Origin: Opitutia bacterium
GTDB taxonomy: Bacteria; Verrucomicrobiota; Verrucomicrobiia; Opitutales; Opitutaceae
Reading direction: 5' to 3'
DNA: 34,422 nt
Assembly: GCA_016187925.1 (NCBI GenBank)
Contig: JACPIS010000043.1
Span: 1-34,422, forward strand
In this document: one piece after another, positions 4,568 through 21,724 of the stretch
Numbering within the stretch: position 1 is the stretch's first letter
Layout of the letters: the number at the start of each line of letters is the position of its first letter
Notes under the pieces: model-generated
The model's database searches: none
What the model was told of the DNA's origin: nothing
The model's input: the letters and a program-made list of their open reading frames with translations, nothing else
Position numbers and translations under genes: made by a program

Positions 4568-6142
4568 ATGCCCGAGAAAAAGCACATCTTTATCAGCAGC
4601 GTCCAGAAGGAGTTCTCCGGGGAACGGGCGGCGTTGTGCGACTGGCTGCGGAGCGACCCGCTTATGCGGCGGTTCTTCGAGCCGTTCCTGTTCGAGGAGG
4701 TGCCGGCCTCCGACCGCCGGGTCGACGAGGTGTATCTCGACGAGGTCGGACGCTGCGACATTTACCTCGGACTCTTCGGGAACGACTACGGATTCGAGGA
4801 TCACGAGGGCGTTTCACCCACGCAACGGGAGTTCGATCGCGCCACGACTCTGGGCAAGACACGGTTGATCTTCGTCAAGGGTGCGGATGGCCGGACCCGG
4901 CACCCGAAGATGCAGGCGCTCGTCCGGCAGGCGGACGGTGAGCTGATCCACAAGCGGTTTGTCACGGCGGCCGAGCTGATCGCCGGCGTCTATGCTGCGC
5001 TCGTGCAGTATCTGGAGGATAAGGAACTCATCCGCCATGGTCCGTTTGACGCCGCGCCCTGTCCCGCCGCCACCCTCGCTGATCTCGATCCGGAGCGCAT
5101 GACTTGGTTTCTGCGCGAGGCCCGGCGCGCCCGCGGCTTTCCGCTCTCCGAGCAGGCTTCCCCGGAGGAACTGCTCACCCACCTGAATCTCCTCAATGCC
5201 GGCCGGCCGACCCACGCCGCCGTGCTGCTCTTCGGCCGGCAGCCCCAGCGGTTTCTGCTCTCGTCCGAGGTCAAGTGCGCGCACTTCCACGGCACGCAGG
5301 TGGCGAAGCCCATCCCGTCCTACCAGGTTTACAAGGGCACGGTGTTCCAGCTCGTGGATGCCGCCGTCGATTTCGTGCTGTCGAAACTCGCCCTGGCCGT
5401 CGGAACGCGCGCCGAGAGCAACCAGGCCCCCGTCGCCTACGAACTTCCGCCCGAGGTCGTCCGCGAGGCTATCGTCAACGCCGTCGCTCACCGCGACTAC
5501 ACCAGCAACGGCAGCGTGCAGGTGATGCTTTTTTCCGACCGGCTGGAGGTCTGGAACCCCGGCGCGCTGCCGCCTTCGCTCACCCTGCAAAATCTCCGCG
5601 AGCCGCACGGCTCCGTGCCCGGCAACCCGCTCGTGGCCGAGCCGCTCTACCTCACAAAATACATCGAGCGCATGGGCACGGGCACGCGCGACATGATCCG
5701 CCGCTGCCGCGAGGCCGGCCTGCCCGAGCCGGAGTTCACTGTCACCGACGGTTTCGTGATCGCGCTGCGCCGTCCGCAGCCACCGACCGGACAAGCCACC
5801 CCGCAAGTTACCCCGCAAGTTAAAGCGCAACAGGAGAGGGCTTTGGTGGAGTTGGGCACGACCCTGGGTCTGTCCACCCCGCAAGCTACCCCGCAAGTCG
5901 CCACTCAAGTCGCCAAGGCGCTGGCCGCTGCCGCCGCCACCGGACCGCGCGAGGCATTGCAACAAGCGGCAGGCATCCTCGACCGCGAACATTTCCGCAA
6001 CGCTTACCTTGAGCCGTTGCTCGCGGCCGGCTGGCTCGAACGCACCATCCCCGACAAGCCCACCAGCCCGAACCAACGCTACCGCCTTACCGAAAAAGGC
6101 CGGGCTTGGCTGGCCGCGATGCCGAAGGGCCCCCAAGCCTGA
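4568..6142 (+). CDS. DUF4062 plus RecG-type ATPase (HATPase_c_4) protein
   Basis: A 524-residue protein. The ATG at 4568 is chosen because translation further upstream reads through the 55-bp repeat, and because DUF4062 domains begin like this one (K-K-H-I-F-I-S-S-V-Q-K-E-F). Residues 1-150 are DUF4062, which has a Rossmann-like/TIR-like fold and is common in NLR-like and signalling proteins. Residues about 175-400 match the ATPase of COG2865 regulators: E-A-I-V-N-A-V-A-H-R-D-Y (300-311), W-N-P-G-x-L-P-x-x-L-T (329-339) and R-M-G-T-G-T-R-D-M (368-376). A Gln/Thr/Pro linker follows with repeated T-P-Q-V units (411-418 and 437-448), then a C-terminal winged-helix-like part. In most relatives the N-terminal domain is a Schlafen/AlbA_2 domain; here DUF4062 takes its place. 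It is probably a sensor or regulator, possibly anti-phage given its nuclease neighbours. Confidence 0.8.
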   Translation: MPEKKHIFISSVQKEFSGERAALCDWLRSDPLMRRFFEPFLFEEVPASDRRVDEVYLDEVGRCDIYLGLFGNDYGFEDHEGVSPTQREFDRATTLGKTRLIFVKGADGRTRHPKMQALVRQADGELIHKRFVTAAELIAGVYAALVQYLEDKELIRHGPFDAAPCPAATLADLDPERMTWFLREARRARGFPLSEQASPEELLTHLNLLNAGRPTHAAVLLFGRQPQRFLLSSEVKCAHFHGTQVAKPIPSYQVYKGTVFQLVDAAVDFVLSKLALAVGTRAESNQAPVAYELPPEVVREAIVNAVAHRDYTSNGSVQVMLFSDRLEVWNPGALPPSLTLQNLREPHGSVPGNPLVAEPLYLTKYIERMGTGTRDMIRRCREAGLPEPEFTVTDGFVIALRRPQPPTGQATPQVTPQVKAQQERALVELGTTLGLSTPQATPQVATQVAKALAAAAATGPREALQQAAGILDREHFRNAYLEPLLAAGWLERTIPDKPTSPNQRYRLTEKGRAWLAAMPKGPQA

Positions 6143-6250
6143 CCGCAGTCGCCGCACGTTCGAAGGTCGAGTGCTTCGTCCTCGAACGAAACAACCCGTA
6201 CTCAAACCCACCACCCGCGCCGTAGCCCAACTGACCCTCTACGAACCCGA

Positions 6251-6285
6251 CGCGCCCGCGATCCCACCCCGCGGGCGCGTTTTTT
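6251..6285 (+). terminator. Strong Rho-independent terminator
   Basis: A perfect 10-bp stem (CGCGCCCGCG at 6251-6260, CGCGGGCGCG at 6270-6279) with a 9-base loop and six T (6280-6285). It lies 109 bases after the DUF4062 gene and separates it from the nuclease gene. Confidence 0.9.
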
Positions 6286-6304
6286 GCGCAAAAAAAATTC
6301 ACGA

Positions 6305-6359
6305 TTGGCAGCAAGCGCGCGGCTGCTTTGCTCCCACCCGGGCCAACGCACGCCGGCGT
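6305..6359 (+). repeat. 55-bp dispersed repeat, copy 2
   Basis: Second copy of the repeat at 4441-4495, in the same orientation. It lies between the terminator and the start of the membrane-anchored nuclease gene. Together the copies bracket a 1.9-kb segment holding a single gene with its own terminator. Confidence 0.85.
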
Positions 6360-6384
6360 CTCCGGTGTTCTTCTTCTTACTGTC

Positions 6385-7257
6385 ATGGCCCGTTATCGCC
6401 GTCGCTCCCCGAGAAAATCTTCGTCCGCCGAACTGGTCTGCGCCATTGCTGCGCTGCTTTTTGCCGGAATATACTTTTCGCCAGACTTCAGGCGGCTGCT
6501 AGTTGGCCTTCTCATCTTGATCCTGATCGCCGCAATCTTGGCGCTGATCGGATGGATTGCCTACCGAAAATGGAGGAAACGTGCGGATGCGCCGGGGCAA
6601 ACAGGTGCCATTGCAGCGGTCGCTCCGAGTAATCAACAGGCGGCGGATGCTTCGGCCACGCCACCGCTGATGCGGCCGGCTCCGCAGCGCTTGCTCGAGT
6701 GGTCGCCCGTTCTGCTCTCCCGGTTGGAGTGGAAACGCTTCGAAGATGTGGTCGCGGCCTACATACGGGTGATCGGACACCAGGCCCGCACCACCCGGAT
6801 TGGTCCGGATGGTGGCGTCGATGTCGAGGTGCTCGACCCTGCGACCGGGCAGGTCGTGATGCTCGTGCAATGCAAGGCGTGGGATGCCTACAAGGTGGGG
6901 ATCAAGCCACTGCGGGAACTCTTTGGCGTCATGGCGGCGGCCAAGATTACCCAAGGGGCCTTTTTCACGACGGGAGAATACACGCAGGATGCACTCGTCT
7001 TCGCTCGGGAAAATCAGCTCGATGCCGTCGATGGGGCGGAATTTATCTCGCGCATTCGGCAACTGTCCGCTGCCAGTCAGCTGCGGCTGCTGGAAGCAGC
7101 CACGCAGGGCGACTACACCACACCCACCTGTCCTGGCTGTGGGGTGAAGATGATCCTGCGCACGGCAGAGAAAGGGCGGAACACAGGCGACAGCTTTTGG
7201 GGCTGCCGCAACTACCCTCGCTGCAAGCAGACTTTCCGGCTGCCCAAGGCTGCATGA
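6385..7257 (+). CDS. Membrane-anchored Mrr-type restriction endonuclease with topoisomerase zinc ribbon
   Basis: A 290-residue protein from the ATG at 6385; the longer reading starts inside the 55-bp repeat. Two hydrophobic helices (about 15-31 and 38-60) precede a basic/polar linker. Residues 105-235 are an Mrr_cat nuclease domain: F-E-D-V-V near 119-123, the catalytic Asp146 in D-G-G-V-D-V-E-V and Gln162-x-Lys164 in V-Q-C-K, the D-x(n)-QxK form of the PD-(D/E)xK fold. Residues 247-285 are a C4 zinc ribbon of the topoisomerase type (Cys249, Cys252, Cys274, Cys280, with F-W-G-C-x-x-Y-P-x-C). Such proteins cleave foreign or modified DNA. Two N-terminal helices suggest attachment to the inner membrane with the nuclease in the cytosol. 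The restriction-modification gene follows within 60 bases. Confidence 0.85.
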   Translation: MARYRRRSPRKSSSAELVCAIAALLFAGIYFSPDFRRLLVGLLILILIAAILALIGWIAYRKWRKRADAPGQTGAIAAVAPSNQQAADASATPPLMRPAPQRLLEWSPVLLSRLEWKRFEDVVAAYIRVIGHQARTTRIGPDGGVDVEVLDPATGQVVMLVQCKAWDAYKVGIKPLRELFGVMAAAKITQGAFFTTGEYTQDALVFARENQLDAVDGAEFISRIRQLSAASQLRLLEAATQGDYTTPTCPGCGVKMILRTAEKGRNTGDSFWGCRNYPRCKQTFRLPKAA

Positions 7258-13373: not shown

Positions 13374-13754
13374 ATGAACACGATGAGTCCGGCTTCCTTG
13401 GTGCCTGCGAGTTTCCTGAGTTATGCGAGCTGCCTGCTGCCCGAGCCGGCACCGCGCGCCGCTGCGACTGCGCCGCGGCTGCATGCGCTGCCGAACATGA
13501 ACGCCGAGGCGGAGGGCGTGCTGCGCGCCCCGCTCACTCCGGCGGAGAAGCGCGTGCTCGATCTCGTGCTCGCCGGACTGGCGGACAAGGAGATCGCCAG
13601 CGTGCTCGATCGCGCCGTGCCGACAGTAAAGCACCAGGTGAGCGCCATCCTGCAGAAGTACCGCGTGCCCTCGCGGGCGCGCTTGATGGCGGTGCTGCGT
13701 GCGAATAACACGAGCGACACGACAATCTCGTATTTCGACCGGACCGGCAGCTGA
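13374..13754 (+). CDS. LuxR-type HTH transcriptional regulator (short)
   Basis: A 126-residue protein. Residues 54-108 form a LuxR/GerE helix-turn-helix: L-T-P-A-E-K-R-V-L-D-L-V-L-A-G-L, K-E-I-A-S-V-L, T-V-K-H-Q-V-S-A-I-L-Q-K-Y. The first 50 residues are low-complexity (Ala/Pro/Leu) and show no receiver or ligand domain, so it is a stand-alone DNA-binding domain whose input is unknown. ATG 13374 is preferred; ATG 13383 is possible, and the more upstream frame is Ser/Arg-rich filler. A terminator follows at once. It lies just upstream of the flavin-transferase operon and might regulate it, which is speculation from position alone. Confidence 0.75.
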   Translation: MNTMSPASLVPASFLSYASCLLPEPAPRAAATAPRLHALPNMNAEAEGVLRAPLTPAEKRVLDLVLAGLADKEIASVLDRAVPTVKHQVSAILQKYRVPSRARLMAVLRANNTSDTTISYFDRTGS

Positions 13755-13781
13755 GACTCCCATCACACCACCGGCAACAGG

Positions 13782-13812
13782 GCGGCCCGCGGAAATCGCG
13801 GCCGCTTTTTTT
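13782..13812 (+). terminator. Rho-independent terminator of the LuxR-type gene
   Basis: Stem GCGGC/GCCGC plus CGCG/CGCG with one bulged C (13782-13791 against 13797-13805), a 5-base loop and seven T (13806-13812), 28 bases after the stop codon. Confidence 0.85.
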
Positions 13813-14200
13813 GTCCCGTCAAACACGGCGGAGCGGCCGGAATTTTTTTTCACGCCGGACCCGCGCACATGCTGACGTAACGAACTAGGTACGTTCGGGT
13901 GGAGTGGTTTTTCAGGTCGGAAATATACGGCAAATTTTGCGAAAACCCACGTTGGTGCATTAGCATTCTTTGCGGCGAAAAAAATCCAGTATTTGCGTGT
14001 TTTCAGAGGAGAAAACGAAGCACGGAGAAATTTTCCTGCGCATATTTTGTGTTGTGAAAAGCACCGCGCGACTCCCCGCATCCCTCGCAGCGGGTGTGCA
14101 AAATTTGCGAAGGCTTTGTGAACGCGTCGTAATCTTTTTGCGTGCGTGCATTTTTTTGGAGCAAACGCGCGGCGTTGCTGTTCTGAGTGCGCACACACTC
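13813..14200 (+). promoter_or_regulatory. AT-rich leader and promoter region of the flavin-transferase operon
   Basis: A gene-free 388-bp stretch, clearly more AT-rich than its surroundings. It contains two near-identical 14-mers, GCAAATTTTGCGAA (13930-13943) and GCAAAATTTGCGAA (14098-14111). The first 11 bases of one are the reverse complement of those of the other, and each is nearly palindromic. There is also a CGAAC-n7-GTTCG inverted repeat (13881-13897). These are candidate operator sites. The open frame crossing this DNA codes for Cys/Phe/Arg-rich filler and is not considered part of the next gene. Confidence 0.5.
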
Positions 14201-15400
14201 ATGCAAATGTTACACAAAAACAAAAACTCCGTCGCGAGCGCCTGGCTGCGCCGTGGCTCGCTGGCTGCGCTCTGGTGGTTCTGCGCTCCGCGCCTGGCGC
14301 GCGCAGAGGACACGCTCACCTACAAGTTCCAGACCTGGCAGGAAGACAACCAACGCGTCCGCGTCGATGCGCACTATGCGCAGATCGAAAAGGATCTCGG
14401 CACGGACATGCATGTGAAGGTCATGGGTCTCATCGACTCGATCGCGGGCGCGACGCCCACCGGCGAGAAGGCGCAGACGCCCGGCGACCCCGTGCCGCTC
14501 GCGCACATGGAGGACCGGCGCAAGGCATGGTCCGCCGATCTCAACCGTCAGTTTCACCGGGTCGGCGTGTCGGCGGGCTTCGCCGTCAGCCGCGAGAGCG
14601 ATTACGTCTCCAAAGGCTGGTCGCTGAACACGGTCACCGATTTCAACCAGAAGAACACGAACCTGCTCCTCGGCTACGGTCGCACGGACGACACGATCAT
14701 GGAGCGGAAACTCGGCTGGACCGTCGACCGCTTCAAGGACGGCAACGATTACATCATCGGCGTCACGCAGCTCATCGACCCGAACACCGCCGTGACCGCC
14801 AACCTGTCCTACGGCCAGTCGCGCGGGTTCATGAGCGATCCGTACAAGATCGTCTCGACCCACCTGCTCGACGCCGACCCGGGCACCTATTACACGCCGC
14901 CGGAGAACCGGCCGCGCGAGAAGAACAAGACCACGCTGTTCCTCGGGGTGAACCGCAACTTCGAAAAACTGAACAGCGCGCTCGACCTGTCCTACCGCCT
15001 TTACCACGACTCCTTCGGCATCACCAGCCACACGGTCGACCTGAAGTGGATCCAGCCCATCGGCGAGCACTTCATCATCGAGCCGTCGATCCGCCACTAC
15101 CGCCAATGCGCGGCCGACTTCTACTACTACGATCTCGACGCCGCTCATGTCATCACCTCCTACGAGCCGCTGCTCGGCGAGACCGGCACGGGCCGCGCGC
15201 CGTTCTACTCCTCGGATTACCGCCTCTCCAACATGGAGACGCTCGACCTCGGGCTGAAAGTCACCTGGAAGATCAAGCCGTGGATCGCGGTGGATGTGGC
15301 CTACAACCGCTACACGTCCCGCGGCCTGGATTGGATCACTCCCGATGACGTCTACAGCAAGGCCAACACGTTCACGATCGGCCTGAAACTCACGCGCTGA
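14201..15400 (+). CDS. DUF3570 outer-membrane beta-barrel-like protein
   Basis: A 399-residue protein. The start at 14201 (or the ATG at 14207) gives a signal peptide with W-L-R-R, a hydrophobic core at 18-30 and cleavage at R-L-A-R-A/E-D (35/36). The mature protein alternates short polar and aromatic beta strands, with many Tyr/Asp pairs and repeated S-R-E-S-D-Y, S-Y-G-Q-S, Y-R-L-Y-H-D-S-F strands, and ends in T-F-T-I-G-L-K-L-T-R, an outer-membrane-type last strand. This matches DUF3570, predicted outer-membrane proteins often encoded beside ApbE, thioredoxin-like and DUF4266 genes. It is the first gene of a five-gene operon, five bases before the ApbE gene. Its role, possibly a pore or surface scaffold, is not known. 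Confidence 0.85.
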   Translation: MQMLHKNKNSVASAWLRRGSLAALWWFCAPRLARAEDTLTYKFQTWQEDNQRVRVDAHYAQIEKDLGTDMHVKVMGLIDSIAGATPTGEKAQTPGDPVPLAHMEDRRKAWSADLNRQFHRVGVSAGFAVSRESDYVSKGWSLNTVTDFNQKNTNLLLGYGRTDDTIMERKLGWTVDRFKDGNDYIIGVTQLIDPNTAVTANLSYGQSRGFMSDPYKIVSTHLLDADPGTYYTPPENRPREKNKTTLFLGVNRNFEKLNSALDLSYRLYHDSFGITSHTVDLKWIQPIGEHFIIEPSIRHYRQCAADFYYYDLDAAHVITSYEPLLGETGTGRAPFYSSDYRLSNMETLDLGLKVTWKIKPWIAVDVAYNRYTSRGLDWITPDDVYSKANTFTIGLKLTR

Positions 15401-15405
15401 ACGCC

Positions 15406-16392
15406 ATGTGCGCTCTCGTCCAATCCAACACGGCGCACCCCGCGGCGAGCACGGGCGCCAATGTGCCGCTCCGCGTCCTGCGGTGGCACGCGCTCGGCAC
15501 GCAGTGCGAGGTGCAATACGCGTGCGCCGACTCCGGCCACGCCCGCGCCTTCGAGAACGAGGCGACCGGCTGGGTCGCGGCCTTCGAGGCGAAATACTCG
15601 CGCTTCCGGCCGGACAGTCTCATCAGCCGCATCAACGCCGCGGCGGGCGGCGACTGGGTGCCGGTCGATCCGGAGATGGATGCGTTCCTTGATCTGTCCG
15701 GCTCGCTGCATCAGCTCACCGGCGGTGTGCTCGACGTCACCGCGCTGCCGCTCATGCGGCTGTGGGACTACAAGGCCGCCACGCCGCGCATCCCCGCGCC
15801 GCAGGAGGTCGCCGCCGCGCTGCGGCTCGTCGGCTGGAGCAAGGTCCAGCGTGCGCCGGGCCGTGTGCGCCTGCCCCTGCCGGGCATGGCGCTCGATTTC
15901 GGCGGCTGGGGCAAGGAATACGCCGTCGACATGATCGCGCAGCTCGCGCGCCGCCACGGGATCGAGCAGGCGCTCGTCGACTTCGGCCACGATTTGTGCG
16001 CCGTCGGCGCCGCGCCGGGCAAGCCGGGCTGGCACATCGGCTTGGAGGACCCCGCGCAGCCGGGCGTCGCCTGCTGGGGCAGCATCGCCGCACGGGATTG
16101 CGGCGTGGCCAGCTCGGGCGACTACATCCGCGGCTTTACGCAGGACGGCCGGCGCTACGGGCACATCATCGACCCGCGCAACGGCCGCCCGGTGGCCAAC
16201 GGCTGCCGCCAGGTGACGGTCGTCGCCCGCACGTGCGTGCAGGCCGGCGTGCTGTCCACCGCAGTTTTCATCCTCGGCCCGGTCACCGGGCTGAGACTCG
16301 TCGAAGAAATCATGGGCGTGGAGGCCGCGATCGTGGCCGACACCGCCCGCCATCAAACCAAGGGGTTCAATCGTTATGTTGTCGCTCATTAA
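15406..16392 (+). CDS. apbE: ApbE-family FAD:protein FMN transferase-like protein
   Basis: A 328-residue protein with the ApbE core: F-E-A-K-Y-S-R-F-R-P-D-S-L-I-S-R-I-N (60-77), L-D-F-G-G-W-G-K-E-Y-A-V-D (163-175), S-S-G-D-Y (236-240) and H-I-I-D-P-R-N-G (253-260). ApbE enzymes attach FMN from FAD to Thr/Ser of exported redox proteins. Two oddities are visible. There is no signal peptide or lipobox, although most family members act outside the cytoplasm. And the C-terminal A-D-x-L-S-T signature reads A-G-V-L-S-T (280-285), so the metal-binding Asp is Gly281. No protein in this window carries the flavin-acceptor motif. It overlaps the thioredoxin gene by 17 bases. Confidence 0.85.
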   Translation: MCALVQSNTAHPAASTGANVPLRVLRWHALGTQCEVQYACADSGHARAFENEATGWVAAFEAKYSRFRPDSLISRINAAAGGDWVPVDPEMDAFLDLSGSLHQLTGGVLDVTALPLMRLWDYKAATPRIPAPQEVAAALRLVGWSKVQRAPGRVRLPLPGMALDFGGWGKEYAVDMIAQLARRHGIEQALVDFGHDLCAVGAAPGKPGWHIGLEDPAQPGVACWGSIAARDCGVASSGDYIRGFTQDGRRYGHIIDPRNGRPVANGCRQVTVVARTCVQAGVLSTAVFILGPVTGLRLVEEIMGVEAAIVADTARHQTKGFNRYVVAH

Positions 16393-16879
16393 GAAAACAT
16401 CCGTCGGCGTGGCGGCTTTGTTCGCCAGCGCCTTGCTGGCCTCGGCCGAGGTCAAGGTCGGCCAGCCGTTTCCCGCGCTCGAGAACTACCGCCTCGAGGG
16501 CCAGCTGCCCGCGGCCGCCGGCCGCGTCGTGCTCGTCGACTTCTGGGCGACGTGGTGCGCGCCGTGCCGGGCGTCGTTCCCCGCCTACAGCGCGCTGCAA
16601 CGCGAGCTCGGCGACCGGGGCTTCACCATCATCGCCGTCAGCGTCGACAAGAAGCAGGGCGAGTATGACGAGTTCCTGAAGAAATTCACCCCGAGCTTCA
16701 CCGCCGTGCGCGACGGCCAGCAGCGCCTGGCCGCGGAACTCCATGTGCCGAGCATGCCGACCAGCTACCTGGTCGATAAGCGCGGCGTGCTGCGCGCCGT
16801 GCACAGCGGCTTCCACGGCGACGCCTCGGTCAAGGAACTGCGCAACCAGATCATCGAATTGCTGGAGGAAAAACCATGA
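16376..16879 (+). CDS. TlpA/ResA-like exported thioredoxin-fold protein
   Basis: A 167-residue protein starting inside the end of apbE. Signal peptide 1-24 (K-K near the start, Ala/Leu core, L-A-S-A/E). The thioredoxin fold has V-L-V-D-F-W-A-T-W-C-A-P-C-R (52-65) with the redox Cys61 and Cys64, and the cis-Pro loop S-M-P-T-S-Y (about 125-130). This is the AhpC-TSA/Redoxin form of TlpA/ResA proteins, which reduce or isomerise disulfides in the periplasm. Its stop overlaps the next ATG, so it is translationally coupled to the Cys-containing DUF4266 lipoprotein, an attractive but unproven partner. Confidence 0.9.
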   Translation: MLSLIKKTSVGVAALFASALLASAEVKVGQPFPALENYRLEGQLPAAAGRVVLVDFWATWCAPCRASFPAYSALQRELGDRGFTIIAVSVDKKQGEYDEFLKKFTPSFTAVRDGQQRLAAELHVPSMPTSYLVDKRGVLRAVHSGFHGDASVKELRNQIIELLEEKP

Positions 16880-17094
16880 ACAAGAAATGCCTGATTCTTC
16901 TCTCGCTCGGCGCGCTGGCGCTGCTCAGCGGCTGCACCACCGTGCAGCCGTGGGAGCGGGCCACGCTGGCCGATTACCGCATGCGCCCGGACCGCGACCC
17001 GCTGATGGTCGCGATGACCGAGCACATCTACTTCTCACGCGAAGCCTCTTCCGGCGGCCGCGGGGTCGGCGGCAGCGGCTGCGGCTGCAACTAA
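16876..17094 (+). CDS. DUF4266 small lipoprotein
   Basis: A 72-residue lipoprotein. Residues 1-19 are a lipoprotein signal ending in the lipobox L-S-G-C (Cys20). The rest matches DUF4266: V-Q-P-W-E-R (23-28), L-A-D-Y-x-M (31-36), a central H-I-Y-F-S-R-E-A (50-57) and a Gly-rich end G-G-S-G-C-G-C-N (65-72). The paired Cys69 and Cys71 at the extreme C-terminus are the striking feature of the family and could bind metal or be redox active. A GGAGG site at 16864-16868 inside the preceding gene serves this start. The mature protein is only about 52 residues and should sit in a membrane leaflet facing the periplasm. Confidence 0.88.
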   Translation: MNKKCLILLSLGALALLSGCTTVQPWERATLADYRMRPDRDPLMVAMTEHIYFSREASSGGRGVGGSGCGCN

Positions 17095-17105
17095 CCGAGA
17101 CCACC

Positions 17106-20100
17106 ATGATAACTCCCCCAGATTCCACGCCGGTCATCCAACTGATGAGCCGGCTGGCCCTCCGCTACCGCTGGTTGCACGCGCCGGTCGGACTCCTGCT
17201 CGTGCTGCTGCAGCGCACCCCCGCGCTCCGGGTGATCGCCGGACTCGAGTTCGTCGCCGGCAACGTGGCCGGCGACGGCTTGAAGTACGTCTTTACCGTC
17301 GCGGCCCTCGGCGCCTACAACTCGCTTGCGGGTGCGACCACGTTCTCCGTCTCCGGCGCCACGCCCGCCAGCGGCCCGGCCGGCACGAACTTCACGATCC
17401 CTGGCACCACCGGCACCGCGATGAACATCTCGTTCACCGTGACGGGTGCCCCGGGCAATCCCAAGTCCTGGAGCGTTACCGGCACGCTGCCCGCGGGCCT
17501 CTCGGTTACGGGCGGCAATCCCGTCAACGTGACCTCGCCCTTCAAGATGACCATCACCGGCACGCCGACGGCCTCGGGCAATTTCCCCGTGACGGTCACG
17601 GCCTGGGATTCCACCGGGGCCAAGGGCAACAAGGCCAGCATCAACTGCACCTTCAGCATCACCGGCGGCGTGGTCACGACTCCACCGTCGTTCAGCATGC
17701 ATCCGTCCAGCGTCACCGTGACGGCGGGCGGGGCGGTCACCTTCTCGGCGACCGCCGGCGGTGCGCCGCCACCGAACTATCAATGGCAGAAGAACGGGGC
17801 GAATATCGCGGGAGCGACGGCGGCGAGCTATAGCATCGCCGGTGCGCAGGCGGGAGATGCCGGCACTTACACCGTGGTCGCCACGAACAGCGCGGGCACG
17901 GCCACCAGCAACGGTGCGGTTCTCACGGTCAACGCGGCCGCCACAGCGCCCGCGATCAGTACGCAACCGCAGAGCGTGACCGTCACGGCCGGCGGCGCCG
18001 CCAGCTTCTCGGTCACGGCGACGGGCACGGCTCCGTTGTCCTACCAGTGGCAGAAAGGCGGGGCGAACATCGCCGGCGCCACCAGCGCGAGTTACTCGAT
18101 CGCCAGCACGCAAGCGGCCGACGCCGGCAGCTACGCCGTCGTGGTGACGAACAGCGCGGGCTCGGTCACGAGCAGCGCCGCCACGCTCACCGTCAACGCG
18201 GCCGCCGTGGCACCTTCGATCACCGGGCAACCGCAGGCGGTCACGACCACCGCGGGTTCCGGCGCGAGCTTCTCGGTCACGGCCACCGGCACCGCGCCGT
18301 TGTCCTACCAATGGAGGAAGGACGGGGCGAACATCGCGGGCGCGACCAGCGCCACCTACACGATCGCCAGCGTGCAGGCGGCCGACGCCGGCAGCTACAC
18401 CGTGGTCGTTTCGAACTCTGTCGGCTCGGCCACTTCCAGCGCCGCCGCTCTCACCGTGAGCGCAGCCTCGGTGGCACCCACCATCGCGGCCCAACCGCAG
18501 GCGGTGACGGTGACGACCGGCGGCAGCGCGAGCTTCTCGGTCACGGCCAACGGCACGGGTCCATTGTCCTATCAATGGAAAAAGGACGGCGCGAACGTCG
18601 CGGGTGCGACCAGCTCCAGCTACTCTATCGCCAGCGCGCAAGCCGGCGATGCGGGCAGCTACACCGTGGTGGTCACTAACAGTGTCGGCTCGGTCACCTC
18701 CGCCGCCGCCTCGCTCACCGTGAGCGCCGCGGCCGTGGCTCCGACCATCAGTGCGCAGCCGCAGAACGCGACGGTCAGCGCCGGCTCCGCCGCGAGTTTC
18801 TCGGTCACGGCGACCGGCACGGGTCCGTTGAGTTATCAATGGCGCAAGAGCAGCGTGAACATCGTGGGCGCCACGGCGGCGACCTACAGCATCGCCAGCG
18901 CGCAGGCCGTGGACGCCGGCAATTACACCGTCGTCGTCAGCAACAGCGTCGGCTCCGTGACCAGCAACGTGGCAACCCTCACCGTCAACACGGCGAGCGG
19001 CCCGGCACCGGTCATTTCCAAGCCGCCGCTGAACGAGACGGTCGCCATCGGCCGCACCGTGAGCTTCTCCGTCGCGGCCGACGGTGCCAGCAGCTACCAG
19101 TGGCAGGTCTCCTCCGACGGCGGCCTCACTTGGAACAATGTCGCGAACAACTCCACCTACAGTGGCGCGACGAGCTCGCGCCTCACCATCGCGAATGCCG
19201 GCACGGATATGAGCGGTTATCTCTACCGGGCCACGGCAACGGGCACCGGCGGCTCTGTGACGACGGGCAACGTGACCCTGACGGTCGCAGCGCCCGTGCT
19301 GCCCGGTCCGACCGCCGTGTGGCTCCAGCCGAGCGGCCAGATGGTGGTGAGCGACAGCAATGCCAACGTCATCCACGCGATCACCACCGGCGGCCAGGCG
19401 AGTTCACTTGCGGGCGTCGCAGGGCAGCAAGGCTCCAGCGACGGCAGCGGCAGCAACGCCCTGTTCCGCACACCGGGCGGCCTCGTCCTCGATGCGTCGG
19501 GCAACGCGTACCTCGCCGACACCGGCAACTCGCTCATCCGGAAAATCAGTTCCAGCGGCGCGGTCACCACGGTGGCCGGCTCCGCGAGCAACCAGGGTTT
19601 CCGCGACGGCGCCGGCAACGCGGCGTGGTTCAACACGCCCGCCGATATCGCCGCGGACGGCTCCGGCAACGTCTACATCGCCGACACCGGCAACTCCGTC
19701 ATCCGCAAGCTCGCGACCGACGGCACCGTGACCACGTTCGCCGGCTCCGCCGGCCAGCGCGGCGGTGCCGACGGCACGGGCGCCGGTGCGCGCTTCAACC
19801 AGCCCGGCGGCATCGTCGCCGACGGCTCGGGCAACGTCTATGTGGCCGACACGTTCAACCACACGATCCGCAAGATCACTCCGTCCGGCGCCGTCTCGAC
19901 GCTCGCCGGCGTGCAGGGCATCAGCGGGGTGGACGACGGCACGGGCGCGGCGGCGTTGTTCAACCAGCCGGGCGGTCTGGCCATCGATACCGCGGGCAAC
20001 CTCTACGTGGCCGACACCGGCAACAACACGGTCCGCGTGCTCTCGCCGGCCGGTGCGGTCCGGACCATCGCCGGTCTGCCCACGATCGCGGGCCTGGAGG

Positions 20101-20411
20101 ATGGCGCCGGTTTCGCGGCGCTGTTCAACCAGCCCAAGGATCTCAGCCTCGATGCATCGGGCAACGTCTACGTGGCCGACTACGGCAACGCCGCCATCCG
20201 CAAGATCACGCCCAGCGGCACCGTCAGCACGCTCAGCCTGAGCCAGTCTTCCAACACGCCGACTCCTACACCGACGCCCACGCCGACGCCGTCGCCCTCG
20301 ACCGGCTCGCCGGGCACCGACGGCGCCAAGTCCGGTGGCGGTGCGCCGAGTGTCTGGTTCCTGCTCCTGCTGGCCGGCGCGACGGCGCTGCGGCGCAGGA
20401 TTCGAGCATGA
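17106..20411 (+). CDS. Giant exported Ig-like / NHL beta-propeller protein with GlyGly-CTERM-like tail
   Basis: A 1101-residue protein starting 11 bases after the DUF4266 stop. The N-terminus (1-80) is an unusual leader with Arg/Leu-rich hydrophobic segments (L-L-L-V-L-L-Q-R-T-P, then a second segment ending near S-L-A-G-A). Residues about 80-190 form a putative-Ig (He_PIG-like) domain. Residues 193-632 are five near-identical Ig-like domains of 88 residues each (nt 17682-19001), without cysteines. A sixth, divergent Ig domain runs to about 730. Residues 733-1045 are six NHL repeats (F-x-x-P-x-G-l-x-x-D-x-x-G-N-x-Y-v-A-D-x-x-N), forming a six-bladed propeller. A P-T-P-T linker leads to a tail S-G-G-G-A-P-S, a hydrophobic helix and R-R-R, like GlyGly-CTERM sorting signals. 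It is probably surface-anchored and adhesive or protein-binding. Confidence 0.85.
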   Translation: MITPPDSTPVIQLMSRLALRYRWLHAPVGLLLVLLQRTPALRVIAGLEFVAGNVAGDGLKYVFTVAALGAYNSLAGATTFSVSGATPASGPAGTNFTIPGTTGTAMNISFTVTGAPGNPKSWSVTGTLPAGLSVTGGNPVNVTSPFKMTITGTPTASGNFPVTVTAWDSTGAKGNKASINCTFSITGGVVTTPPSFSMHPSSVTVTAGGAVTFSATAGGAPPPNYQWQKNGANIAGATAASYSIAGAQAGDAGTYTVVATNSAGTATSNGAVLTVNAAATAPAISTQPQSVTVTAGGAASFSVTATGTAPLSYQWQKGGANIAGATSASYSIASTQAADAGSYAVVVTNSAGSVTSSAATLTVNAAAVAPSITGQPQAVTTTAGSGASFSVTATGTAPLSYQWRKDGANIAGATSATYTIASVQAADAGSYTVVVSNSVGSATSSAAALTVSAASVAPTIAAQPQAVTVTTGGSASFSVTANGTGPLSYQWKKDGANVAGATSSSYSIASAQAGDAGSYTVVVTNSVGSVTSAAASLTVSAAAVAPTISAQPQNATVSAGSAASFSVTATGTGPLSYQWRKSSVNIVGATAATYSIASAQAVDAGNYTVVVSNSVGSVTSNVATLTVNTASGPAPVISKPPLNETVAIGRTVSFSVAADGASSYQWQVSSDGGLTWNNVANNSTYSGATSSRLTIANAGTDMSGYLYRATATGTGGSVTTGNVTLTVAAPVLPGPTAVWLQPSGQMVVSDSNANVIHAITTGGQASSLAGVAGQQGSSDGSGSNALFRTPGGLVLDASGNAYLADTGNSLIRKISSSGAVTTVAGSASNQGFRDGAGNAAWFNTPADIAADGSGNVYIADTGNSVIRKLATDGTVTTFAGSAGQRGGADGTGAGARFNQPGGIVADGSGNVYVADTFNHTIRKITPSGAVSTLAGVQGISGVDDGTGAAALFNQPGGLAIDTAGNLYVADTGNNTVRVLSPAGAVRTIAGLPTIAGLEDGAGFAALFNQPKDLSLDASGNVYVADYGNAAIRKITPSGTVSTLSLSQSSNTPTPTPTPTPTPSPSTGSPGTDGAKSGGGAPSVWFLLLLAGATALRRRIRA
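17682..19001 (+). repeat. Five tandem 264-bp Ig-domain repeats
   Basis: Exact unit borders are 17682, 17946, 18210, 18474 and 18738, each encoding 88 residues. Units 2-5 are the most alike, for example in F-S-V-T-A-T/N-G-T-x-P-L-S-Y-Q-W and D-A-G-S-Y-T-V-V-V. Such arrays can gain or lose units by recombination. Confidence 0.9.
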
Positions 20412-20469
20412 TTTGATCAGGGGCAACTCAAGGACCTCGCCCGCGATTGGGCGGGGTCCGTCTCTCATC

Positions 20470-20505
20470 GCGGCGCGTCGGCTATCCGGCGCGCCGCTTG
20501 TTTTT
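20470..20505. terminator. Terminator between the operon and the convergent kdgK
   Basis: A perfect 8-bp stem (GCGGCGCG at 20470-20477, CGCGCCGC at 20490-20497) with a 12-base loop, then TTGTTTTT (20498-20505). It suits the plus strand and may also serve the leftward kdgK transcript, which ends 11 bases away. Confidence 0.8.
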
Positions 20506-20515
20506 CGCCCGAAGA

Positions 20516-21613
20516 TTACCGCACGACGCGCGCCCCGCCGCCGGCGATCTGCTTTTCGACTTCCTGGCGCGTGGCCATGGAGGTGTCGCCGGGCGTGGTG
20601 GAGGCGAGCGCGCCGTGCGCGGCGCCGTAGTCGACGGCCTTTTGCGCGTCGTTGAACTGGAGGAAGCCGAACTGCAGGCCGGAGGCGAACGAGTCGCCGC
20701 CGCCGACGCGGTCGAGGATCTCGAGCTCGGGATATTTCCGGCTCTCGTGGAATCTGCCGGCGTGCCAGAGGATGGCGGACCAGTCGTTCTTCGTGGCGGT
20801 GATGACGCGGCGCAGCGTGGTGGCGGCGACCTTGAAGTTGGGATACGCCTGCACCGCGGTCTCGATCATGGCCTTGAAGGCGTCGGTCTTGATGGCCGAG
20901 AGGCGATGGTCGACGCCCTTGACCTCGAAGCCGAGCGAGGCGGTGAAGTCCTCCTCGTTGCCGATCATCACGTCGACGTACCGGGCGATCTCGCGGTTGA
21001 CCTCCTGCGCCTTCTGCAGGCCGCCGATGGATTTCCAGAGGGACGGGCGGTAATTCAGGTCGTAGCTGACGATGGTGCCGTGCTGCTTGGCGGCCTTGAC
21101 GGCCTCGATGGTGAGCGCGGCGGTGGACTCGGAAAGCGCGGCGAAAATGCCGCCGGTATGGAACCAGCGTGCGCCGAGCCGCCCAAAGATATTTTCCCAG
21201 TCGAAGTCGCCCGGCTTGAGCTGCGAGGCGGCGGTGTGGCCGCGGTCGGGCACGCCGACGGCGCCGCGGATGCCGAAGCCGCGCTCGGTGAAGTTGAGGC
21301 CATTGCGCACGGTGCGACCGATGCCGTCGTCCTCGCGCCAGCGGATGAAATCAGGAGCGACGCCGCCCTGCAGGATGAAGTCCTCGACGAGGCGGCCGAC
21401 CTCGTTGTCGACGAAGGCGGTGCAGACGGCGGTTTTCAGGCCGAAGCATTTGCGCAGGCCGCGCGAGGTGTTGTATTCGCCGCCGCCCTCCCAGGCGCTG
21501 AAGGAGCGGGTGGTGCGGATGCGGCCCTCGCCCGGATCGAGACGGAGCATGACTTCGCCGAGCGAAATCTGGTCAAAGGCGCAGGAAGCGGCCGGCTTGA
21601 AGTCGAGGGGCAT
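20516..21613 (-). CDS. kdgK: 2-keto-3-deoxygluconate kinase (PfkB family)
   Basis: A 365-residue PfkB-type sugar kinase starting at the ATG complementary to 21611-21613. G-G-G-E-Y-N-T-S (43-50) is the sugar-side signature and D-R-V-G-G-G-D (301-307) is the catalytic/ATP motif with Asp307 as the general base; the commoner form is D-T-x-G-A-G-D. It phosphorylates 2-keto-3-deoxy-D-gluconate to KDPG, the step between UxuA and Eda, both encoded just upstream on the same strand. It is the last gene of the leftward operon. About 110 bases of repeat DNA (GTTGAGAG words and a GTAGGG element) separate it from uxuA. Substrate specificity is inferred from context. Confidence 0.85.
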   Translation of the reverse strand: MPLDFKPAASCAFDQISLGEVMLRLDPGEGRIRTTRSFSAWEGGGEYNTSRGLRKCFGLKTAVCTAFVDNEVGRLVEDFILQGGVAPDFIRWREDDGIGRTVRNGLNFTERGFGIRGAVGVPDRGHTAASQLKPGDFDWENIFGRLGARWFHTGGIFAALSESTAALTIEAVKAAKQHGTIVSYDLNYRPSLWKSIGGLQKAQEVNREIARYVDVMIGNEEDFTASLGFEVKGVDHRLSAIKTDAFKAMIETAVQAYPNFKVAATTLRRVITATKNDWSAILWHAGRFHESRKYPELEILDRVGGGDSFASGLQFGFLQFNDAQKAVDYGAAHGALASTTPGDTSMATRQEVEKQIAGGGARVVR

Positions 21614-21625
21614 GGGGTGGAGGGG

Positions 21626-21724
21626 AGCGGTTGAGAGTTGAGGGATGAGAGTTGAAGAAGGGATTTGATTCGTAGGGTTGCGCCTGGTGTGCGGCCTCCG
21701 GCGCGACACAAGGTCGCGCCCTAC
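21626..21724. repeat. GTTGAGAG words and a GTAGGG...CCCTAC palindromic repeat
   Basis: Between uxuA and kdgK. 21626-21655 is a run of GTTGAGAG/GATGAGAG words. 21672-21724 starts GTAGGGTTGCGCC and ends GGTCGCGCCCTAC, a long imperfect palindrome of the same class as 27313-27360 and 28900-28975. The stop codon of uxuA (21721-21723, TAG on the minus strand) lies inside the CCCTAC end. Confidence 0.7.

Follow-up and report, generated by a model that had tools for sequence, protein, structure and literature searches.

The window analysed here is the entire contig C13 (34,422 bases, from an assembly of 3,995,137 bases), and its forward strand carries five closely packed genes. These encode a 399-residue DUF3570 protein (14,201–15,400, +; PF12094, 224 bits), predicted with AlphaFold and Foldseek to be a 16-strand outer-membrane beta-barrel and a predicted substrate of ApbE; an ApbE FMN transferase (15,406–16,392, +; PF02424, 249 bits); a TlpA/ResA-like thioredoxin with a WCAPC motif and an N-terminal signal-like stretch (16,376–16,879, +; PF00578, PF08534 and PF13905, with AhpC-TSA, Redoxin and Thioredoxin_8 scores of 59–60 bits); a small DUF4266 lipoprotein whose lipobox, LSGC, was read from the sequence and which ends in CGCN (16,876–17,094, +; PF14086, 80 bits); and a protein of 1101 residues, hereafter gene 5 (17,106–20,411, +), in which sequence and Pfam matches delineate an N-terminal module (NTERM), Ig-like domains, NHL repeats and a sorting-like tail. 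The Pfam scores of the first four are well over cut-off. DUF3570 and ApbE genes are separated by 5 bases (15,400/15,406), the ApbE and TlpA genes overlap by 17 (16,376–16,392), the TlpA and DUF4266 genes by 4 (16,876–16,879), and 11 bases precede gene 5 (17,094/17,106). Rechecking of the ORF positions reproduced the layout given in the initial annotation, and both the length and the Ig/NHL content assigned there to gene 5 were borne out (Pfam: Ig_3 224 bits and NHL 108 bits over the whole gene).

A scan of 13,700–20,800 found no sigma-70-like site on the forward strand. Just 3' of gene 5 lies a terminator-like hairpin with a T tail (20,470–20,497, +; 12 pairs, 11 of them G-C), and a second, weak stem of 6 pairs falls within the TlpA gene (16,401–16,415, +). 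Since the five terminator-like sites in the scanned region compare with 4.5 expected by chance, suggestive value lies only in the position and strength of the last hairpin. Beyond gene 5, a pfkB-type kinase gene occupies the opposite strand. The single DsbD_TM gene of the genome is on a different contig from these five genes.

The first four families are not strangers to one another. In the available part of PMC8238504, ApbE, DUF3570, a thioredoxin-like protein and DUF4266 are reported together, with DUF3570 in 227 and DUF4266 in 221 of 285 clusters that include DsbD, and a further 316 clusters holding the four genes without linked DsbD; the DUF3570 protein of C. luteolum is shown there to be flavinylated, at two motifs. 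The set of the first four genes is accordingly already known, and the suggestion that the locus represents an undescribed system does not hold for its core. The accessible text of PMC12052999 gives the minimal ApbE motif as D-x-x-[S/T]-G-A-[S/T], with loss of the D having a minor effect in one reviewed study. Literature searches listed one paper for DUF4266/DUF3570, and none of the papers listed places an Ig-type or giant protein in this system.

The DUF3570 protein is predicted to form a closed outer-membrane beta-barrel. Its AlphaFold model has 16 strands (pLDDT 87, pTM 0.85) with long loops after the odd strands, and the best 50 Foldseek PDB matches are outer-membrane barrels, with low TM-scores (0.29–0.54). 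The sole flavinylation-like site of the protein, D79-S-I-A-G-A-T85 (codons 14,435–14,455, +), was recognised by column conservation and lies where strand 3 of the model ends. Outer-membrane barrels have short turns on their periplasmic side, so that, given the long loops after odd strands, the T85 site would be at the outer end. Across 112 unique sequences of the family, D, G and T/S at this site are each invariant (112/112), position -3 is A in 52, T in 28, S in 26 and V in 6, the strict D..[ST]GA[ST] form is found in 54, and 109 have this single site only; other DUF3570 clades carry N or S instead of D at -6. A possible second site, DYIIGVTQ (183–190), found no support, its -1 position being mainly V/L/I and its last position N in 11/112. 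The idea that the site is lost in distant families also proved wrong, as it reads G[AS][ST] there.

In gene 5, six Ig_3 matches (five over cut-off) span 17,682–19,217 (+) and are followed by an NHL-repeat region at residues about 737–1054 (19,314–20,267, +; stretches of PF01436, PF08450 and PF22701). A further match of the propeller region is to the gluconolactonase-like family SGL (48 bits); this match overlaps the NHL repeats, and Pfam recognised no other enzyme domain in the protein. The sorting-like tail of the initial annotation (residues 1077–1098; 20,334–20,399, +) is GlyGly-CTERM-like, and three rhombosortase genes over cut-off are encoded in the genome (0/14 control genomes have one), but at 14.9 bits it narrowly misses the TIGR03501 cut-off of 15.5. 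Neither Ig nor NHL repeats qualify as the conserved feature of such proteins: among 130 ORFs with NTERM, 117 have an Ig-repeat match to the repeats of the window, just 13 have NHL, and several C-terminal types occur. What is conserved in gene 5 is the N-terminus rather than the Ig/NHL architecture. Nine other ORFs of the genome have Ig_3 matches, seven over cut-off. Gene 5 is unlikely to be a thiol substrate of TlpA/DUF4266, since Cys is lacking beyond the module in 68 of 98 complete unique proteins (70/101 with a looser cut and duplicates). GAT is a usual turn of bacterial Ig domains, and the GAT motifs of the Ig repeats were set aside as multiple flavin sites because the repeats do not have their D in register.

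NTERM is an N-terminal module of about 80 residues with the pattern LLQRTP...LGA[HND][ST]xAGAT. In the window it covers residues 11–78 (17,136–17,339, +), where the LLQRTP block is followed by a hydrophobic stretch ending in YNSLAGAT; column statistics and a profile built from the first ~100 residues of gene 5 (83 rows) define it. The profile has a single match in this genome (97 bits), and the module had no match in Pfam, NCBIfam or the PDB. Its constant parts are L-L-Q-R-x-P (Q 113/115, R 113/115 and P 115/115 in the LLQRTP block) and a final [HNDQ][STA]x[ASTV]GA[TS]. GA[S/T] closes the module in 114 of 115 unique sequences, the single exception being AAT; by column, -3 is A92 S10 V8 T5, -2 is G in 114, and -1 (A) and +1 (T/S) are constant in all 115. 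YD[ST]VAGAT is found in 15 sequences from 13 distant loci. The 84 NTERM sequences of our contig collection overlap the family set of 115, and the two sets are not independent.

N72-S-L-A-G-A-T78 (codons 17,319–17,339, +) is a candidate flavinylation or signal-peptidase site, picked out by its GA[S/T] conservation and by a profile of the DUF3570 site. That profile scored NTERM at 13.7 bits exactly at NSLAGAT, compared with 3.6 for the next best window and 3.1 for the best TlpA window, although the score is due largely to the constant GA[T/S]. YNSLAGATTFS of gene 5 is also close to YNSISGATPTG of another DUF3570 clade. The strict D-x-x-[S/T]-G-A-[S/T] form is found in 1/115 sequences (D at -6 in 18/115, S/T at -3 in 15/115) and NSLAGAT fails it, so we do not class gene 5 as an ApbE substrate and propose only that it acts like one. 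The AlphaFold model of gene 5 is helical up to residue 65 of the stretch modelled, and from residue 69 it forms an Ig-like sandwich, which would place GAT at the junction; Foldseek matches to the NTERM model were confined to its sandwich and were mostly of Ig type.

Gene 5 belongs to the redox system. In a survey of 200 genomes of the family, DUF4266 and NTERM were each found in 113, together in 109 and both absent in 83, with four genomes having DUF4266 only and four NTERM only (Fisher test 9e-46, not corrected for phylogeny); three of the four NTERM-only genomes have DUF3570. We took 120 stretches around DUF4266 matches of the family for neighbourhood comparison, using DUF4266 as the cluster marker (ApbE was matched in 101 of 121 loci). 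Of 122 informative DUF4266 genes, 104 have NTERM on their downstream side, within 700 nt in 88 and further away in 16; for the others, it is upstream or on the other strand in 4 and absent from the stretch in 14, and 13 genomes of these 14 stretches carry an NTERM gene elsewhere (G031 has none). At 14 loci the NTERM gene is 4–5 kb downstream of DUF4266 with other genes in between, which at L149, one of 12 loci with ORFs listed, include a histidine kinase and a protein of ~430 residues without a family. The records of named relatives bear the titles Opitutaceae, Opitutae/Opitutia, Akkermansiaceae, Prosthecobacter and Verrucomicrobiaceae. Ten of 13 distant loci (records titled Akkermansiaceae, Prosthecobacter or Verrucomicrobiaceae, and one with only Verrucomicrobia as title) contain all five genes; L258 has no TlpA match, and L241 and L251 start at the NTERM gene. 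The family of genome G413 has 17 NTERM genomes among 68, all 17 with DUF4266. Across a phylum sample of 288 genomes, DUF4266 was found in 29 and NTERM in 15. Every one of the 15 also has DUF4266 and belongs to the same class as the window, where they make up 15 of the 16 DUF4266 genomes; NTERM is absent from the sample's 13 DUF4266 genomes of other classes.

That gene 5 is kept as the fifth gene is supported by its place downstream of DUF4266 and its recurrence in distant loci. Absence of Ig/NHL genes from nearly all related loci had been named as a finding that would speak against it: this does not hold for Ig, matched in most NTERM ORFs, but does hold for NHL, which is missing from most, and NTERM is absent from the sampled DUF4266 genomes outside the class. 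Membership of gene 5 in the system was rightly proposed in that its N-terminal module tracks the core, whereas the shared module itself and its GA[S/T] site had been overlooked.

We next compared the second motif of DUF3570 between loci with and without gene 5; like the linkage above and the exchange below, this comparison was not corrected for phylogeny. At loci without gene 5, the second motif is present in 10/16 overall. Outside the class, where NTERM is lacking, a second [AST]GA[ST] follows site 1 in 8 of 9 intact DUF3570 proteins (1.55/9 expected by shuffling), a count that excludes the broken L269 and the divergent L277–L279; six of these motifs are [KR]AGAT[PQ] in a Pro-rich insertion and two are SSGAS. 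The two SSGAS motifs lie in Ser-rich sequence and may be due to chance. In L277–L279, no second motif of the DUF3570-site type was found. At NTERM-bearing loci, the second motif occurs in 1 of 114 rows (113 distinct; 16 of the rows are distant, of which 15 are distinct, L260 and L288 being one locus). Loci of the class without NTERM or cytochrome, from the family of G413, have the second site in 2/7 and lack it in 5/7. Among these five, L287 stops 386 nt beyond DUF4266, and the genome of L282 also contains the cytochrome-type locus L281.

Two genera (g74 and g186) have the gene-5 body with an N-terminal c-type cytochrome instead of NTERM. At the gene-5 position, genomes G413 and G464 encode proteins of 1541 and 1614 residues, each starting with a conventional signal peptide and containing a single CITCH heme site, which are 50% identical to one another and whose C-terminal halves align with NTERM-type gene 5 at 27–32% identity over about 480–820 columns (best E about 1e-40). 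When the N-terminal 130 residues of the G413 protein (L275) were scanned alone, PF00034 scored 24.1 bits against a cut-off of 21.3, a match missing from the list when the whole protein was scanned at E 0.001; for the G464 protein (L281), the corresponding N-terminal part gave cytochrome matches below Pfam cut-offs only. Both loci are without a TlpA match.

Taken together, our favoured reading, which we put at a probability of roughly 0.5, is that the core is an envelope electron-transfer system of the published kind and that its class-specific gene 5 most likely carries a second covalent flavin. In its favour are the linkage of NTERM to DUF4266, the near-invariance of GA[S/T], the trade-off with the second DUF3570 motif, the exchange for a cytochrome, and the occurrence of NTERM in one copy beside nine other Ig_3 ORFs. 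We also count in favour of a flavin on NTERM that A at -3 and N or S at -6 are found in DUF3570 sites. We infer a route, to which no direction of flow is assigned, in which inner-membrane DsbD, encoded elsewhere, would be connected to the TlpA-like thioredoxin, the thioredoxin to the CxC lipoprotein DUF4266, DUF4266 to the FMN on the DUF3570 outer-membrane barrel, and this FMN to another on T78 of gene 5, both flavins being attached by ApbE; the repeat body of gene 5 would reach outside the cell and exchange electrons with a further partner. More tentatively, and with a little less than even odds in our estimation, NTERM may be a new membrane-proximal class of ApbE substrate, such that the second flavin has moved from a barrel loop to a giant surface protein, with heme c replacing it in two genera, and a flavin relay runs through the outer-membrane barrel to an Ig-type surface protein.

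Several observations weigh against a flavin on gene 5. The strict ApbE motif is absent at NSLAGAT of gene 5 and occurs in one of the 115 family sequences; GAT recurs within gene 5, in Ig repeats of generic type; and five of the seven in-class loci that have neither NTERM nor cytochrome lack the second DUF3570 motif as well. The two SSGAS motifs, the divergent L277–L279 and the limited cytochrome matches of L275 and L281 also count on this side. Furthermore, the segment reads as a signal-peptide h-region plus AxA, and cleavage between AGA and T would remove the motif. NTERM might be no more than an extended signal peptide cut at this point, which exports the giant protein; the latter would then be a cofactor-free partner of the redox system, or its cargo, an explanation that we consider somewhat unlikely. 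Residues 59–77 follow a positive-hydrophobic-polar-AxA pattern, the -3 and -1 columns are as signal peptidase I prefers them, and the modelled transition from helices to sandwich would agree with such a cut. However, signal peptidase does not require the G at -2 (114/115) or the T/S at +1 (115/115), and the information at -2/-1/+1 is 4.25/4.32/3.99 bits in NTERM as opposed to 1.72/2.81/1.85 for the signal site of TlpA. As a control, the signal site of DUF3570 (2.76/3.63/4.06) is less clear-cut, being as conserved at +1 and less so at -2; a conserved +1 does occur at an ordinary signal site too, with E in 108/112 DUF3570 sequences. A signal peptide also leaves the linkage to ApbE, the cytochrome exchange and the DUF3570 trade-off unexplained, as it does the single NTERM in a genome with nine other Ig_3 ORFs, which shows that this genome does not use NTERM as a general secretion signal. 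Speculatively, cleavage a few residues earlier, after [AV]x[AS] at 65–67, would keep the site near the mature N-terminus.

Alternatively, the system could serve gene 5 as its enzyme or binding partner, with the NHL propeller or the Ig repeats as possible active parts and NTERM as a docking site or membrane anchor for the DUF3570 barrel. The constant LLQRTP block, which flavinylation does not need, could then be a contact site, the propeller does match SGL, and the 14 loci with the NTERM gene 4–5 kb from DUF4266 indicate that the link does not depend on direct adjacency. Yet the body is not conserved, as judged from the scarcity of NHL and the varied C-termini, and the one enzyme-like match in the window overlaps NHL repeats, which leaves this an improbable account. 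Ig proteins are common in the genome, and gene 5 could in principle be a structural adhesin that sits behind the operon by chance or convenience; the co-occurrence of NTERM and DUF4266, and the recurrence of NTERM downstream of DUF4266 even in distant families, already make this unlikely, and we give it very little credence. A fifth partner that closely tracks the core offers a way into the terminal step. Were it to carry the flavin, gene 5 would be a new type of ApbE substrate, and a giant extracellular protein would have a flavin bound covalently. Electron transfer by flavins across the outer membrane becomes directly testable with gene 5 and the predicted DUF3570 barrel.

How does the locus compare with known systems? 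With GlyGly-CTERM/rhombosortase proteins, gene 5 shares a Gly-rich, hydrophobic and Arg-rich tail and the presence of rhombosortases in the genome, but the tail is under the family cut-off and many gene-5 homologues end otherwise. Exchange of flavin and cytochrome modules is known for other proteins, such as fumarate reductases, from the available part of PMC8238504, and resembles the present case in that an N-terminal flavin-type or heme module sits on homologous bodies; here, however, the module sits on a giant protein of Ig type, and its flavin form is only a prediction. As far as the system itself is described in that part of PMC8238504, the window shares with it the clustering of the ApbE, DUF3570 and DUF4266 families, a flavinylation-type site in DUF3570 and the C-terminal CxC of DUF4266 (CGCN in the window). 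It differs in its thioredoxin, which is of AhpC-TSA/TlpA type (PF00578/PF08534/PF13905) whereas that of the paper is PF13899, not among the matches of the window; in having one [S/T]GA[S/T]-type site in DUF3570 instead of two; in its unlinked DsbD; and in a fifth gene with NTERM, which is not mentioned there. The locus is a published kind of envelope electron-transfer system, to which gene 5 is a newly recognised addition in one class of Verrucomicrobiota.

Two DUF4266 genes over the cut-off were found in each of four same-genus genomes (G040, G074, G096 and G177; loci L033, L035, L036, L038 and L039). A single contig carries both operons, spaced 10-14 kb apart, in G040, G074 and G096, and each operon has a separate protein carrying NTERM, the ~80-residue N-terminal module of the giant Ig/NHL protein. 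At 14 loci (L033, L036, L038, L040, L049, L052, L057, L062, L063, L078, L084, L125, L144 and L149), other genes separate DUF4266 from the NTERM gene, which is found 4-5 kb downstream; at L149 the genes in between include a histidine kinase gene and one for a ~430-aa protein that gave no match in a Pfam scan. The genome of the window bacterium itself encodes three rhombosortases over the cut-off, on contigs C9, C27 and C5.

Outside the class of this bacterium, at loci lacking NTERM, the DUF3570 proteins (L262-L268, L270 and L271) carry a Pro/Ala/Ser-rich insertion C-terminal to the flavinylation-like site 1, and in six of these nine the insertion contains [KR]AGAT[PQ]. At L269 (G309) DUF3570 is broken across three frames, reflecting either a pseudogene or a sequencing error. 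No TlpA match was found between ApbE and DUF4266 at L275, L281, L280, L285, L289, L290 or L258, seven loci that include both of those (L275 and L281) where an N-terminal c-type cytochrome replaces NTERM on the gene-5 body.

Upstream of the window operon and on its own strand (+), a gene at 13419-13754 encodes a short LuxR-type HTH protein (GerE, 35 bits), which could regulate the operon. The operon is followed on the minus strand by a pfkB gene (20516-21640); judged by eye only, this resembles a kinase gene (5955-7058 in the DUF4266 orientation) immediately 3′ of DUF4266 at L286, a locus from another genus.
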